A DNA stretch of 64,000 bases from Psychrobacillus vulpis (lineage in GTDB: Bacteria > Bacillota > Bacilli > Bacillales_A > Planococcaceae), in contig NZ_VDGI01000004.1 in the NCBI RefSeq assembly GCF_006861825.1, positions 62,294 through 126,293 on the forward strand. Direction: 5' to 3'. The notes beneath the pieces were generated by a model. The model was not told the DNA's origin, made no database searches, and saw nothing but the letters and a program-made list of their open reading frames with translations. A program made the position numbers and the translations under genes. Within the stretch, counting starts at the first letter, position 1. Each line of letters opens with the position of its first letter. Shown piece by piece: positions 11,622 to 17,264 of this stretch.

Positions 11622-11819
11622 TTAGGTTTTTAAATCTTCAATGGCCCGAATAAAATTGTTGTAACTCTCTATTCCGTATATCTCTTTACTCTCCTTAAAG
11701 AAGCTTTTTTGCATGAAGATTTTTGCAGATTCTAGAGAATAAGATCTTGCTTTCATAACAAGTCTTAGGTAGGAAATAAAATATTCTTTAGATAAATTAG
11801 CCCCATTATTTACAATCAT
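11622..11819 (-). CDS. Small protein of unknown function, downstream of the flavoprotein gene
   Basis: 65 residues, charged and helical ('FISYLRLVMKARSYSLESAK'), no signal peptide and no family I recognise. Its SD (AAGGGTGA) sits in the 12-bp gap after the flavoprotein stop codon, so the two are almost certainly co-transcribed. Position suggests a role in the MarR-controlled arsenical cluster, but nothing in the sequence states what it does. Confidence 0.6.
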   Translation of the reverse strand: MIVNNGANLSKEYFISYLRLVMKARSYSLESAKIFMQKSFFKESKEIYGIESYNNFIRAIEDLKT

Positions 11820-11831
11820 ATTGCTTCACCC

Positions 11832-13211
11832 TTAACATTTAGATGCTTCCGTTCCGCAGCATGATTTCGAAGAATTTTGTGGAGTTAAATTAATGCTACA
11901 TACACCAGTTTCAGGTAGATCGAGTTCTACCTTTTTAGCTGATTCAAAGTCACCGGAAAGATGGGCCACAATAGACCTAACTTGTTCATATCCAGTGGCC
12001 ATTAAGAATGTTGGAGCTCGACCATAACTTTTCATTCCAACTATATAGAAATCTTTTTCAGACTGTCTTAATACCTCTTCACCATGAGGTCGAACTGTTC
12101 CGCAGCTGTGAAGGTTTGGATCAATCAAAGGAGCAAGAGCCTTAACGCTTTCCGTAGCAGTATCTATACTGAGCCTGATTTCTCTTATAAATGAGAAATC
12201 AGGACGGCTTCCTGTATTAGCAATGATTTCATCAACAGGAGAAAGTGTTATTTCACTACCGTCGGATTCCCCAGTAATTCCTATTCCATCATTCGTCTTA
12301 CTTAATTGATGAATAAGAAAAGGAGTATAGACTTTTACTTGACCAGCATCAACTAATTGATGTATACGGCTACCTAATTCACCTCTTGCTTCAAGGGCGT
12401 CTTTGTCTTCTCCACCGTACGCATCTTCTACATTTTCCTTTCTCATTATCCAAGTAATTTCCACTTCATCATTTAACTTTGATAATTCTAAAATTGTGTT
12501 AATGGCTGAATGACCGCCACCAACAACTGCCACTCGTTTGCCTTTGTATCTTTCTTTATGCTCGCCCTTAATATCAGGAATTCCATAATATATGTGTTGT
12601 TTTAATTCTCTTTCTTCTTTTGTCCAAATACTATCAGCATTAATAGGATTTGAATTTGACCAGGTTCCCGCAGCATCTATTACAGCCCTTGCTTCTATTC
12701 TTTTTGATATCCCATTTTGTTCAATGTATAAAACAAAGGGTGAATTGTCACGATTAGCAGTTTTCATTTTATCTAAACCTTTTTTACTTATGGAAACAAC
12801 TCTTGTATTCAGTGATAAAAAAGGTTTTATCTCTGGTAAATTTGCTAAAGGAATCAAATACTCGTTAACTAATTCACTTCCTAAAGGAAGTTTATCTAAA
12901 ATAGGTGGATTCCAACCGTGATTTACTAGAGTTTTTTTAGCTATCTTATCGATATTGTATTGCCATGGTGAAAATAACCGCACATGTCCCCAGTTTAGAA
13001 TATTACTTCCAACACTATCACCTGACTCGAGTAGTATAAAACGTTCTCCAATATTAGCTAGATGGGCAGCTGCTGCTAAACCTATAGGACCAGCACCTAT
13101 AATCGCTATTGGTAATTCCTTGTTTGAAGATTTTACTACATCTGAATTTATTTGTGCTGCAGGCACGCAGCATCCACCAGTGTATACTTGTTTCAGTTCA
13201 ATATTATTCAT
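11832..13211 (-). CDS. FAD/NAD(P)-dependent oxidoreductase with cysteine-rich termini
   Basis: 459 residues with two Rossmann motifs: FAD-binding 'IGAGPIGLAAAAHL' (about residue 40) and NAD(P)-binding 'VAVVGGGHSAINTILEL' (about 225). This places it among flavin-dependent monooxygenase/thioredoxin-reductase-like enzymes. Unusual are a vicinal Cys14-Cys15 in 'GGCCVPA' and a C-terminal cluster 'SCCGTEASKC', which look like soft-metal or arsenical ligands. A GGAGGT box 6 nt before ATG 13209-13211 fixes the start. It lies downstream of marR and has its own promoter carrying the shared palindrome. Substrate unknown; oxidation or reduction of an (organo)arsenical is my inference from context. Confidence 0.85.
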   Translation of the reverse strand: MNNIELKQVYTGGCCVPAAQINSDVVKSSNKELPIAIIGAGPIGLAAAAHLANIGERFILLESGDSVGSNILNWGHVRLFSPWQYNIDKIAKKTLVNHGWNPPILDKLPLGSELVNEYLIPLANLPEIKPFLSLNTRVVSISKKGLDKMKTANRDNSPFVLYIEQNGISKRIEARAVIDAAGTWSNSNPINADSIWTKEERELKQHIYYGIPDIKGEHKERYKGKRVAVVGGGHSAINTILELSKLNDEVEITWIMRKENVEDAYGGEDKDALEARGELGSRIHQLVDAGQVKVYTPFLIHQLSKTNDGIGITGESDGSEITLSPVDEIIANTGSRPDFSFIREIRLSIDTATESVKALAPLIDPNLHSCGTVRPHGEEVLRQSEKDFYIVGMKSYGRAPTFLMATGYEQVRSIVAHLSGDFESAKKVELDLPETGVCSINLTPQNSSKSCCGTEASKC

Positions 13212-13242
13212 CTTCTTACCTCCATGAAATTTTAGTTGAATT

Positions 13243-13278
13243 ATCATATAAATTGTTCTTATTAATTGCATTTTGCAA
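13243..13278 (-). promoter_or_regulatory. Promoter and MarR-type operator of the flavoprotein gene
   Basis: The palindrome TTGCA-TTT-TGCAA (13266-13278) overlaps a -35-like TGCAAT; after a 16-bp spacer comes TATGAT (13243-13248). The same TTGCA-N3-TGCAA palindrome overlaps the marR/arsN1 promoters, so this is probably the MarR binding site. Confidence 0.6.
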
Positions 13279-13314
13279 GTAATATTCATTTTTTTAAGCA
13301 AGACTTAATCTTGC

Positions 13315-13761
13315 TTAAAGTAGAGGTGTACAGCAAACGCTTGATTTGGACATAGCTTGATTTAATAATTTAATAGAACGAATAACTGTTTCTTTTTCAA
13401 ATTCGTTCATATGAGAGAATACTTCCTCTAAATAAGCATTCATCGATTCATCAATGGTTGTAGCGACAAACTTACCTTGTACTGTAAGAGATAAAATATA
13501 TACCCTTTTGTCTGTTGAGGAAGGTGTTTTCTTTACTAATTCCATTTTAATGAGTGTCTGGATTTGTCTGCTAAAAGTCGTTATATCCATTGCTATCGCT
13601 TCTGCAATTTGTTGCATGGATGGTGATGTTTGTTTATCTATTTCATAAAGAATGTGACTTTGTACGGATGTTATATCCACAGCTCCAATTGAACAACAAT
13701 TTTTATTAAGAAGTCCAAACCTACGAGTAAGTACTTGGAATAGTTCACGTTTGTTTTCCAT
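13315..13761 (-). CDS. MarR-family regulator with vicinal cysteine pairs
   Basis: A 148-residue winged-helix regulator: recognition region 'SMQQIAEAIAMDITTFSRQI' and wing 'KTPSSTDKRVYILSLT' are typical of MarR. It has Cys22-Cys23 ('NKNCCSIG') near the N-terminus and Cys143-Cys144 ('SSVCCTPLL') at the C-terminus, which could meet across the dimer and bind a trivalent arsenical or another thiophilic ligand. It is divergent from arsN1 and upstream of the flavoprotein; a shared palindrome sits in the -35 of all three promoters, which suggests autoregulated derepression. Ligand identity is inferred. Confidence 0.85.
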   Translation of the reverse strand: MENKRELFQVLTRRFGLLNKNCCSIGAVDITSVQSHILYEIDKQTSPSMQQIAEAIAMDITTFSRQIQTLIKMELVKKTPSSTDKRVYILSLTVQGKFVATTIDESMNAYLEEVFSHMNEFEKETVIRSIKLLNQAMSKSSVCCTPLL

Positions 13762-13773
13762 GTTTTCACCTCT

Positions 13774-13825
13774 TATATAATGTATACATCATTTACTTGC
13801 AATGTGCAACAAATAACTATAAAAT
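13774..13825. promoter_or_regulatory. Divergent marR/arsN1 promoters sharing one operator
   Basis: Palindrome TTGCA-ATG-TGCAA at 13797-13809. Rightward: TTGCAA (13797-13802), 17 bp, TAAAAT (13820-13825) for arsN1. Leftward: the complementary TTGCAA (same six positions read on the minus strand), 17 bp, TATATA (13774-13779) for marR. One bound regulator would cover both -35 elements. Confidence 0.65.
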
Positions 13826-13864
13826 TTCATTAAATACTTTTTATTTATATTGGGGGAATCAGAG

Positions 13865-14365
13865 ATGAATTTTATGATTCGAAATGCTACAAAAGATGAT
13901 TGGGATGAAATTAAATATATTTATGAAGCTGGGATTTCCACTGGAGTAGCTACATTTGAAATCATAGCACCCTCCACATATGAAGAATGGATCTTAAAAG
14001 CTCATCCTAAATGTACTCTAATTGCACTTGACGAAAATAAAATATTTGGTTGGTGCAAAATTACACCTATATCTGATCGTTTGGCTTATGCAGGTGTTGG
14101 CGAAGTTAGTGTCTATGTCCATCCTAAATCACAAGGGAAAGGAATCGGTAGTCTACTCTTGAAAAATTTGATTACTATATCTGAAGAGCAAGGTTTCTGG
14201 ACTTTACAGGCTTCAATTTTTAGGGAAAATAATAGCAGTATTTATTTGCATAAGAAAAATGGTTTTAGAGAAGTAGGGATACGAGAAAAAATAGGGAAAT
14301 TAAATGGTAATTGGAGGGATAATGTTTTGTTAGAAAGAAGAAGCTGTTTAATTGGATTAGAATAA
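13865..14365 (+). CDS. arsN1: GNAT acetyltransferase, ArsN1-type (arsinothricin resistance)
   Basis: A 166-residue GNAT protein. 'GISTGVATFE', 'ISDRLAYAGVGEVSVYV', 'GFWTLQASIFREN' and 'IGKLNGNWRDNVLLERRS' match the ArsN1 branch of the phosphinothricin-acetyltransferase group; the acetyl-CoA loop is 'PKSQGKGIGSLLL'. ArsN1 N-acetylates the antibiotic arsinothricin, and some relatives accept phosphinothricin. ATG 13865-13867 lies 8 nt after GGGGG; an upstream TTG and a downstream ATG (13874) are alternatives. It is divergent from the cysteine-paired MarR and near arsR-arsB-arsC, which supports an arsenical role. Confidence 0.85.
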   Translation: MNFMIRNATKDDWDEIKYIYEAGISTGVATFEIIAPSTYEEWILKAHPKCTLIALDENKIFGWCKITPISDRLAYAGVGEVSVYVHPKSQGKGIGSLLLKNLITISEEQGFWTLQASIFRENNSSIYLHKKNGFREVGIREKIGKLNGNWRDNVLLERRSCLIGLE

Positions 14366-14572: not shown

Positions 14573-14902
14573 TTATCTAGATGTTTCTAGAAATTCAATA
14601 TTAACCAATTCTTCTGTTTCTGTTGTATACTCAATTCTTACAAATACACCGAATTCGTTGTCCCCTTCTTTTAACCATAGCTTAAACTTTTCAATTGTTG
14701 AATCCTCTTTAGATTCACTTCCTTCATGCAGGTAGTCAATAATTTTCGCATTGGGATATTTTAATTGTGTCTCTTTTACTGCAAGCTGTCCCCACTTTGC
14801 ATATGCTGGTATTTGTTGTTGTGAATGAACAATAGTTGGATTATATGTTGCTATAGTATTAACAATTGTAAAAATTCCAAGTGCAATAAATGTTTTTCTC
14901 AT
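14573..14902 (-). CDS. DUF3889 family secreted protein (YqzG/YhdC-like)
   Basis: 109 residues with a cleavable signal peptide (hydrophobic 'FIALGIFTIVNTIATY' region) and the family signature 'YAKWGQLAVKETQLKYPNAK' followed by 'IIDYLHEG'. Such proteins are small exported proteins of Bacillus with no known activity. It lies between arsN1 and arsC but is unlikely to be part of the arsenic cluster by function. Confidence 0.75.
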   Translation of the reverse strand: MRKTFIALGIFTIVNTIATYNPTIVHSQQQIPAYAKWGQLAVKETQLKYPNAKIIDYLHEGSESKEDSTIEKFKLWLKEGDNEFGVFVRIEYTTETEELVNIEFLETSR

Positions 14903-15175: not shown

Positions 15176-15595
15176 TTACTTTCCCGTTTCAGCAAAATGC
15201 TTAATTCTTTCTCGAATTTCATCACGAACTCGTTGGAAGGTAGCCCATTTCTCTTCATCAGTACCTTGTGCTTTTGCAGGGTCGTCAAAGCCCCAATGAT
15301 CGCGTTTCACATGAGGTGGTGTCATTGGACATTTATCCGCAGCATCTCCGCAAAGTGTAACTACAAAATCCGCATTATTTAACGTTTCCATATCAATAAT
15401 ATCTGAAGTCTGATTAGAAATATCAATTCCAGCCTCATTCATTGATTTAACAGCATTAGGGTTTAAGCCATGTGCTTCAATTCCTGCACTTAGTACTTCC
15501 CACTCATTGCCTAGATATTTTTTTCCCCAAGCTTCTGCCATTTGGCTTCTGCACGAATTTCCCGTACATAAAAAGTAAATAGATTTTTTTTCCAT
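15176..15595 (-). CDS. arsC: Thioredoxin-coupled arsenate reductase ArsC
   Basis: Reduces arsenate to arsenite for export. The 139-residue protein has the low-molecular-weight phosphatase loop 'CTGNSCR' (nucleophile Cys10) and the redox pair in '[12 protein letters not shown]' (Cys82 and Cys89 in the family's numbering), so it is the Staphylococcus/Bacillus type that needs thioredoxin, not glutaredoxin. It is the last gene of arsR-arsB-arsC, 14 bp after arsB. Confidence 0.97.
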
Positions 15596-15609: not shown

Positions 15610-16905
15610 TTAGGAAATTAATAATGAAATATATAGTCCAAATAATGTAAGGAATAGAATTGGAATTGTGAGGACAATACCAGTTTTAAAGTAAGTTCCC
15701 CATGAAATTTTTACTCCCTTTTGCGATAAAACATGGAGCCAAACTAACGTAGCAAGTGAACCGATTGGAGTGATTTTTGGTCCTAGATCAGATCCAATGA
15801 CATTGGCATAAATAAGCGCTTCACGAATAGTTCCAGAAGTGTTTGTTTCTGCAATTGCTAATGCATCGATCATTACAGTTGGCAAGTTATTCATAATGGA
15901 CGAAAGGAATGCTGCAATGAATCCCATCGACATCGTAGCTACGAATAATCCTTTTTCTGCAGCTACTTCGATTACTCCAGCTAATACATTCGTCAGTCCT
16001 GCATTTCCTAGTCCGTATACGACTACATACATACCAATTGAGAAAAATACAATATTCCATGGAGCCCCTTTAATAATAGTTCTTGTGTCAACAGCTTTAC
16101 TTCTTCTTGCCATTAGAATAAAGAATATCGCTATAATTCCAGCCACTATTGAAACCGGTAATTTTATGAATTCACTAGTAAAGTAACCAACAAGTAACAT
16201 GGCAAGAATATACCATGAAAGATGGAACATTTTTAAATCTTTAATTACTTCTTGTGGTTCTCTTATTTTAGTTAAATCATATGTCCTTGGAATGCTTTTT
16301 CTAAAATAGAATAATAAAACGATGATAGTTGCAATCAGTGAGAATATGTTAGGGATTATCATTCGTGAAGCATATTCTACAAAACCGATATTAAAGAAGT
16401 CCGCTGATACAATGTTAACAAGATTACTCACTACAAATGGGAGTGAAGTTGTATCTGCAATAAACCCGCTCGCCATTATAAATGGAAAGATCATTGTTTC
16501 TTTGAAATTCAAATTACGAACCATTGCCAATACTATCGGTGTTAAAATTAATGCAGCCCCATCATTAGCAAAAAATGCTGCAACAATTGCACCTAATACA
16601 CTTACATAAACAAACATTTTATAACCATTGCTTTTGGCTGCCCGTGCCATATGCAAAGCAGCCCATTCAAATAATCCGATCTCATCTAAAATTAAAGAAA
16701 TAAGGATAATAGCAATAAAGGATAAAGTCGCGTTCCAAGTTATGTCTACTACTTCTATGACATCACTAAACTCGACAACTCCTACTAATAGCGCAATAAC
16801 CGCCCCTCCACATGCAGACCAACCGATGTTTAAACCTTTAGGCTGCCATATAACGAAAATAAGCGTTACTAAGAAAATAATTGATGCTAAAATTACTGAT
16901 AACAT
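15610..16905 (-). CDS. arsB: Arsenite efflux permease ArsB
   Basis: 431 residues with about 12 membrane helices throughout; family patterns include '[14 protein letters not shown]', '[18 protein letters not shown]' and '[19 protein letters not shown]'. The length and motifs match ArsB of the ion-transporter superfamily, not Acr3. It expels arsenite (and antimonite) using the membrane potential; no arsA ATPase is nearby. GGAGG in the tail of arsR is 8 nt from ATG 16903-16905, which makes translation coupled to arsR. Confidence 0.96.
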
Positions 16906-16919
16906 AAAACTAACCTCCA

Positions 16920-17264
16920 TTAATCACATGAGATACGTAATCCCTGCACTTCTAATTCTTCAAGTTTAAAATCTTGGTTCGGAAGATGATGAATCAAGCT
17001 CTGGACGAATGGAAAATCATCACTTTCTCTATTCAATGAATAAATAATCCATTGACCTTTTCTTGTTTCTCTAACCAATCCAGCATCTTTTAACTTCCGT
17101 ACGTGTTGACTAATAGCAGGCTGACTTACTTTAAATATTGCAACAAATTCACAAACACAATAATCATGTGTATCCAGCATTTTAAGCATTGTAAGTCTTG
17201 TTTTATCACCCAACAGTTTTAATATTACTGCAGCTTTTTCAATTTCAATCGCTGATGAATTCAT
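16920..17264 (-). CDS. arsR: Arsenical-responsive repressor ArsR
   Basis: A 114-residue winged-helix repressor. The metal site lies in '[12 protein letters not shown]' (the ELCVCDL motif of ArsR), followed by the recognition helix '[18 protein letters not shown]' and wing '[13 protein letters not shown]'. Arsenite binding to the CxC pair releases it from DNA. First gene of the arsR-arsB-arsC operon, behind its own SigA-type promoter. Confidence 0.96.

Follow-up and report, generated by a model that had tools for sequence, protein, structure and literature searches.

The window analysed here is a stretch of 64,000 nucleotides of Psychrobacillus vulpis (contig NZ_VDGI01000004.1, positions 62,294–126,293) and the system in question is a module of four genes located beside arsRBC, at positions 11622–14365 of the window, where all its parts are present. 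Three of these genes are carried by the minus strand: marR (13315–13761), which encodes a MarR-family regulator of 148 amino acids; the gene of an ArsV-like FAD/NAD(P) flavoprotein of 459 amino acids with two Rossmann folds (11832–13211); and, downstream of the latter, orf65 (11622–11819), which encodes a small conserved protein devoid of cysteine. The fourth gene, on the plus strand (13865–14365), diverges from marR and encodes an ArsN1-like GNAT acetyltransferase. Two predicted operators, to which no strand is assigned, match the palindrome TTGCANNNTGCAA: O1 (TTGCAATGTGCAA, 13797–13809) lies between marR and arsN1 and O2 (TTGCATTTTGCAA, 13266–13278) between marR and the flavoprotein gene. 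The original prediction, made from the DNA of this region, had proposed a second arsenic regulon apart from arsRBC; at the level of sequence, this proposal is supported by the linkage to organoarsenical genes, the paired cysteines of the regulator and a common operator. It is thus likely that the module is a second resistance regulon, which would respond to organoarsenicals through MarR, separately from ArsR.

The regulator is a genuine member of the MarR family (PF01047, 44 bits for a cut-off of 24.6) and its model has structural matches to MexR, FabT and ZitR in Foldseek. As had been noticed earlier, it carries two pairs of adjacent cysteines, Cys22-Cys23 and Cys143-Cys144, and these are the only cysteines among its 148 residues. 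On the AlphaFold2 model (predicted local distance difference test, pLDDT, of 83), one pair is located where helix 1 ends and the other right after the last helix. In MarR proteins, the terminal helix regions form the dimer.

The conservation of these features was followed in three sets of loci. Set A (80 loci) comprises 79 flavoprotein loci and the second MarR copy of the P. vulpis genome; as it was picked for the presence of the flavoprotein, the partner genes were counted in sets B and C only. Set B comprises the best 80 of 456 MarR relatives (70–97% identity) from a collection of genomes of named species, found with a MarR alignment and two peptide patterns that both lie in the winged-helix region and not at the cysteines. 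Set C gathers the 31 match places listed outside the P. vulpis genome in an evenly drawn sample of 398 Bacillota genomes, 32 of which match a MarR profile at E ≤ 1e-20; this profile takes in the cysteine columns and is therefore biased towards proteins with cysteine pairs. Sets A and B have genomes in common and one locus of set C occupies a contig position already represented in set B. Both cysteine pairs are kept in all 80 regulators of set B, and the four cysteines are invariant in the 60 aligned sequences (70–97% identity). Among the 51 full-length regulators of set A (52 rows, one fragment being left out), Cys22 is found in 48 and the three others in all. The 31 regulators of set C, whose identity to the window MarR or to the Priestia MarR, whichever is nearer, is only 35–71%, all carry two CC pairs more than 90 residues apart.

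Within the family of the host, the MarR profile retrieves 76 matches (71 genomes) at 216 bits or more, 24 at 97–128 bits and one fragment at 95 bits (from a manual count of the rows). Of the 24 low-scoring paralogues, seven were fetched: they have neither cysteine pairs nor ars genes in their vicinity, and no operator at up to one mismatch. Each of these seven has msrA in its stretch, which makes a conserved neighbourhood. More distant MarR proteins linked to ars genes are found on two Priestia plasmids (CC + CC, followed by the gene of an ArsP-family permease), in Niallia (CC + single C, operon marR-arsN1-flavoprotein) and on a plasmid of Pseudomonas nitroreducens (23% identity, CC + CC, order marR-arsN1-flavoprotein-arsD-arsA). 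On the two Priestia plasmids, marR and the permease gene adjoin genes encoding a radical SAM protein with an RCCLKC tail, an ATP-grasp protein and a carboxymuconolactone decarboxylase-type protein; they possibly belong to a biosynthetic cluster whose product would be a natural arsenical, their link with arsenic chemistry being a guess.

In set A (1.2 Mb), the exact palindrome TTGCANNNTGCAA occurs 55 times for 1.3 occurrences expected from base composition, and 53 of these sites are near the starts of marR, flavoprotein, arsN1, major facilitator superfamily (MFS) or ArsO-like genes. When one mismatch is allowed, 76 of the 80 loci of set B have a site upstream of marR and 66 have one between marR and the gene that follows; with 59 permuted half-sites, which preserve composition but not ancestry, the means are 0.22 and 0.27 loci, respectively, and the highest values 2 and 7. 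At the same stringency, no site was found inside marR in set B, for a control mean of 0.24. Likewise, a site with no more than one mismatch is present in 22 of the 31 loci of set C (mean of 0.17 and maximum of 2 for the permuted controls), and this number rises to 29 if two mismatches are allowed (mean of 2.5, maximum of 12). The central triplet varies, which argues for selection that would act on the half-sites.

The whole P. vulpis genome contains 11 exact sites, compared with 4 for the reversed pattern. Seven of the 11 are inside open reading frames (ORFs), as would be background occurrences; with the 4 sites of the reversed control, this led to the rejection of a MarR regulon extending beyond ars genes in this genome. 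The four sites outside ORFs all flank module-type genes: they are O1, O2, a site in the arsN1/marR gap of a second copy and a site in the gap between divergent MFS and ArsO-like genes. The second copy (contig C1, near 401,000) has the order <ArsN1 >MarR with its own operator and retains only the first part of the flavoprotein gene. The other site (C1:406,634), some 5 kb away from the second marR copy, separates a divergently transcribed MFS transporter gene from that of an ArsO-like flavoprotein, and this pair is a probable further part of the regulon. In the window, the left half of O1 coincides with the −35 element in a promoter-like match for arsN1, such matches being fewer in this region than in its shuffles; by-eye reading suggests the same for marR, with a half-site of O1 as the −35 element.

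The genes that follow marR indicate what the regulator may control. In set B, the gene that follows marR on the same strand encodes a relative of the window flavoprotein in 34 loci, an ArsO-like flavoprotein in 17, an ArsP-family permease in 10, ArsM in 8, ArsI in 2 and ArsN1 in 1, i.e. 72 of the 80 loci. At least one organoarsenical-type gene (ArsM, ArsI, ArsP, ArsN1, flavoprotein or ArsO-like) is found within 77 of the 80 stretches. In set C, the next gene encodes ArsM in 21 of the 31 loci, the flavoprotein in 2, ArsN1 in 1 and ArsP in 1. As for these labels, two ArsM and one ArsI pass their NCBIfam cut-offs, the remaining labels being assigned by blastp to these seeds, and three permeases pass PF03773, a family broader than ArsP. 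Relatives of this MarR across many Bacillota thus mostly precede genes annotated, from sequence similarity, as organoarsenical genes. This extends the original prediction, which did not include the placement of such a MarR before arsM, arsI or ArsP-family permease genes. In set A, many genomes display the order <ArsN1 >MarR >flavoprotein >ORF65 again, with or without arsRBC. Since this order recurs across genomes and the partners recur in loci found through MarR, a chance neighbourhood of the module genes was rejected. Genes encoding a TnsA/Mu-type transposase, TniB and TniQ flank the Niallia and Rhizobium loci, which may be carried by Tn7-like elements.

The 459 residues of the flavoprotein are counted from an ATG, the listed ORF of 489 amino acids beginning at an upstream TTG. 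It is an FAD/NAD(P) protein with two dinucleotide-binding folds (Pyr_redox_3, PF13738, 76 bits for a cut-off of 30), whose matches are found in 170 of the 261 genomes of the host's family (E ≤ 0.001, weak short matches being counted). The CC near its N-terminus and the CCG...C tail that had been pointed out correspond to C14-C15 and to C451-C452-G...C459, and two further cysteines, C370 and C438, have to be added. The latter are present in all of 32 sequences, C451 in 31 and C452, C14 and C15 in 30 each. C370, C438 and a CC are also found in Ensifer and Rhizobium homologues, and the N-terminal CC is absent from these homologues and from one group of Bacillota controlled by ArsR. One homologue (42% identity) without any recognised ars gene in its stretch has none of these conserved cysteines. 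Assignment to ArsO was rejected (NF040505, 50 bits for a cut-off of 425), and no ArsV model appears among the 25 best NCBIfam matches of the window search.

Homologues of this flavoprotein are carried by plasmids of Bacillota, Pseudomonadota and Actinomycetota. Named ars genes are present in 8 of 13 plasmid loci, and the number rises to 12 when ArsR-family regulators are counted as well; the stretch of a Roseomonas plasmid has neither. The homologues of Ensifer and Rhizobium sit between arsR and arsK, that of Neotabrizicola (Paracoccaceae) follows arsR, and an MFS gene follows the homologue in Neotabrizicola, Hydrogenophaga and Rhodococcus. A quick tree, in which 63 of the 104 rows are under MarR control and 41 under ArsR or other control, requires at least four changes of control. 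These data suggest an enzyme family wired to different regulators and not specific to MarR. The original prediction withstood the refuting checks that sequence allows, the tie of MarR to organoarsenical genes and the conservation of its cysteine pairs being upheld; it has to be corrected in that the flavoprotein family is also found under other control. Near relatives of the flavoprotein are found on plasmids of Staphylococcus and Mammaliicoccus from poultry litter, duck and chicken. Aromatic arsenicals are former poultry feed additives, and the origin of these Staphylococcus-type plasmids fits this use, in a manner that is suggestive only.

The divergent position of the acetyltransferase gene and its closeness to ArsN1 were both recovered, ArsN1 family A being its nearest NCBIfam family, but its score remains below the cut-off of that family (NF040503, 147.2 bits for 170). 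A counterpart from Paenibacillus urinalis, beside the same MarR-flavoprotein pair, passes it (197.8 bits). Judged from these similarities, the enzyme would work in an ArsN1-like manner and is not assigned to family A. The 65-residue companion proved to be a conserved gene: across sets A and B, 67 loci yielded 67 homologous ORFs, and 24 aligned homologues are 31–72% identical. No Pfam family matched it consistently and no PDB entry matched it. Members of its family adjoin the flavoprotein gene or HesB-like genes or are located upstream of marR within ars loci, and a role as accessory of the flavoprotein is a guess.

The following model can be drawn for the module. A MarR dimer would bind the palindromes O1 and O2 at the promoters and would repress both the divergent arsN1/marR pair and the separate flavoprotein-orf65 unit. 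A trivalent organoarsenical (methylarsenite, a trivalent aromatic compound or a compound of the arsinothricin type) would bind to Cys22-Cys23 and/or Cys143-Cys144, i.e. to vicinal thiols located where the helices that form the dimer end, and would thus free MarR from DNA. Once induced, the ArsV-like flavoprotein would convert the trivalent compound, captured by the thiols of C370, C438 and C451/C452, to a less toxic pentavalent form with NADPH, FAD and O2, and the ArsN1-like enzyme would acetylate arsinothricin-type compounds. The further operator site of the genome would bring an exporter of the MFS and the ArsO-like flavoprotein into the regulon. A two-coordinate organoarsenical site at a cysteine pair of MarR is chemically plausible; SpArsR is described as sensing methylarsenite, MAs(III), selectively through a single vicinal pair with no third cysteine (PMC13236881). 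A methylarsenite-inducible arsRM operon, described for another bacterium in the title of a reference (listed in PMC11868830), is an earlier example of arsM being induced by an organic form. In the P. vulpis genome, an ArsM query run without a positive control gave nothing at E ≤ 1e-15 and no protein exceeds the ArsI cut-off; the module is therefore probably directed against organoarsenicals produced by other organisms.

Several data weigh against this interpretation. Eight of the 80 loci of set B have no recognised organoarsenical gene next to marR (ArsR in 3, no gene or a gene on the opposite strand in 3, others in 2), and 6 of the 31 loci of set C have another next gene or none; the fetched stretch lacks any organoarsenical-type gene in 3 loci of set B and 5 of set C. 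Cys22-Cys23 and the C-terminal tail of MarR are in less certain parts of its model, and the model of the flavoprotein is poor (67.4), so that its cysteines cannot be placed on it. The link of the flavoprotein to ArsV comes from synteny and from what is known of ArsV loci, and the acetyltransferase does not reach the ArsN1 family A cut-off. In the scheme given for Paraclostridium bifermentans EML, arsM is placed under ArsR1 (PMC11653729). The substrate of ArsM, the commonest partner in set C, is inorganic arsenite, and arsenite could be the inducer.

Sensing of arsenite is kept alive as an explanation by this prevalence of ArsM. MarR would then detect inorganic As(III) or Sb(III) through a three-coordinate site across the dimer that involves both pairs, the flavoprotein would be mainly an oxidase of antimonite or arsenite, and the organoarsenical genes would follow because their substrates are made from arsenite. 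Besides the 21 ArsM loci, the two cysteine pairs per chain make a third ligand possible, inorganic ars genes are also near marR in 50 of the 80 loci of set B, and ArsV also oxidizes Sb(III) according to the title of a cited paper. However, the ArsR of the neighbouring arsRBC already senses arsenite: on the minus strand, 0.8 kb beyond the acetyltransferase gene, the window carries arsC (15176–15595), arsB (15610–16920) and arsR (16920–17264), arsC being separated from arsN1 by the gene of a DUF3889 protein (14573–14902, minus strand; PF13028, 101 bits). Furthermore, the partners ArsI, ArsP-family permease and ArsN1 act on organoarsenicals, and an organoarsenical-type gene is found without any inorganic ars gene in the fetched stretch of 28 of the 80 loci of set B and 20 of the 31 of set C. 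Sensing of an inorganic form is thus unlikely, and that of a trivalent organoarsenical is preferred.

Still less probable is a MarR that would act as a general sensor of thiol redox state or electrophiles, like OhrR or YodB, beside a flavoprotein that would be a bacillithiol-linked reductase splitting, for example, adducts of thiols and arsenicals in the manner of YpdA. MarR proteins with redox-active cysteines are known, and the bacillithiol disulfide reductase Bdr/YpdA is the best solved relative of the flavoprotein both by sequence and in Foldseek, where a root-mean-square deviation near 20 makes the match indicative of fold class only. Nevertheless, the assignment of the flavoprotein to YpdA was rejected, the score being far from the cut-off (TIGR04018, 54.7 bits for 339.9); members of its family are found in Pseudomonadota and Actinomycetota too, phyla that are not known to make bacillithiol; the partners are arsenic genes; and the seven fetched paralogues away from ars genes have no cysteine pairs. 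That the module is only a functionless passenger of mobile arsenic islands, as the transposition genes beside some loci and the truncated flavoprotein gene of the second P. vulpis copy might suggest, is hardly credible, since the cysteine pairs, the operator and the organoarsenical partners are kept phylum-wide with or without inorganic ars genes nearby.

With somewhat less assurance than for the P. vulpis module, the balance of these data favours a broader proposal. MarR proteins with paired cysteines at both termini would form an ancient family across Bacillota, dedicated to the sensing of trivalent organoarsenicals and endowed with its own operator, that would govern arsM, for the synthesis of arsenical antibiotics, as well as the genes by which these are destroyed, exported or blocked (arsV-like, arsO-like, arsI, arsP-family and arsN1), in parallel with ArsR and independently of it. 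If true, this second, MarR-type family of sensors would account for the way in which Bacillota control the production of organoarsenicals, and resistance to them, separately from the arsenite pump. In P. bifermentans EML, a figure legend terms the mechanism that activates arsP unknown (PMC11653729); MarR, being directly upstream of ArsP-family permease genes in other Bacillota, is a candidate for this switch. It is also a candidate part for biosensors selective for organoarsenicals.

Regulators of the MarR family, organoarsenical sensors of the ArsR type and oxidases of the ArsV type are already known kinds of proteins. By synteny, the closest likeness of the flavoprotein is to ArsV, a flavin monooxygenase that oxidizes trivalent organoarsenicals and is likewise a flavoprotein of ars loci, known from Ensifer adhaerens ST2 and, with ArsW, from Paracoccus sp. 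SY. The homologues of Ensifer adhaerens and Rhizobium are 47–49% identical to it and have C370, C438 and the CC tail in common with it, and their arsR-arsK setting, like the arsR-MFS setting of the Neotabrizicola homologue, is in keeping with that of ArsV and ArsW. In contrast to these loci, the window module would be under MarR control and features the N-terminal CC and ORF65. The title of one ArsV paper concerns the oxidation of organoarsenicals and antimonite, the work on ArsV being cited in PMC11719878, PMC9144182 and PMC10080717.

The ArsO family (NF040505) likewise consists of flavoproteins with two dinucleotide-binding folds encoded in ars loci. The ArsO-like protein of P. vulpis, whose gene has the common operator, scores 285 bits for a cut-off of 425, and the window flavoprotein, only 25% identical to it, is not ArsO. 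For the divergent gene, ArsN1 family A (NF040503) is the best NCBIfam match, yet a sub-threshold one. The regulator shares its fold and winged-helix DNA-binding domain with MarR repressors of the MexR, FabT and ZitR type, whose entry listings show neither terminal CC pairs nor a linkage to arsenic genes. The ligands of these repressors differ from those proposed for the window MarR.

No description of a MarR-type arsenical regulator was recognised in the open-access literature searched. The arsenical repressors described in two recent papers on such repressors belong to ArsR/SmtB and the word MarR is absent from their main text (PMC11868830 and PMC13236881). SpArsR resembles the window regulator in that a vicinal cysteine pair is the presumed organoarsenical site. 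Unlike this ArsR/SmtB protein, which has one pair, the window MarR carries two pairs, at the ends of its chain, and would recognise a different operator.

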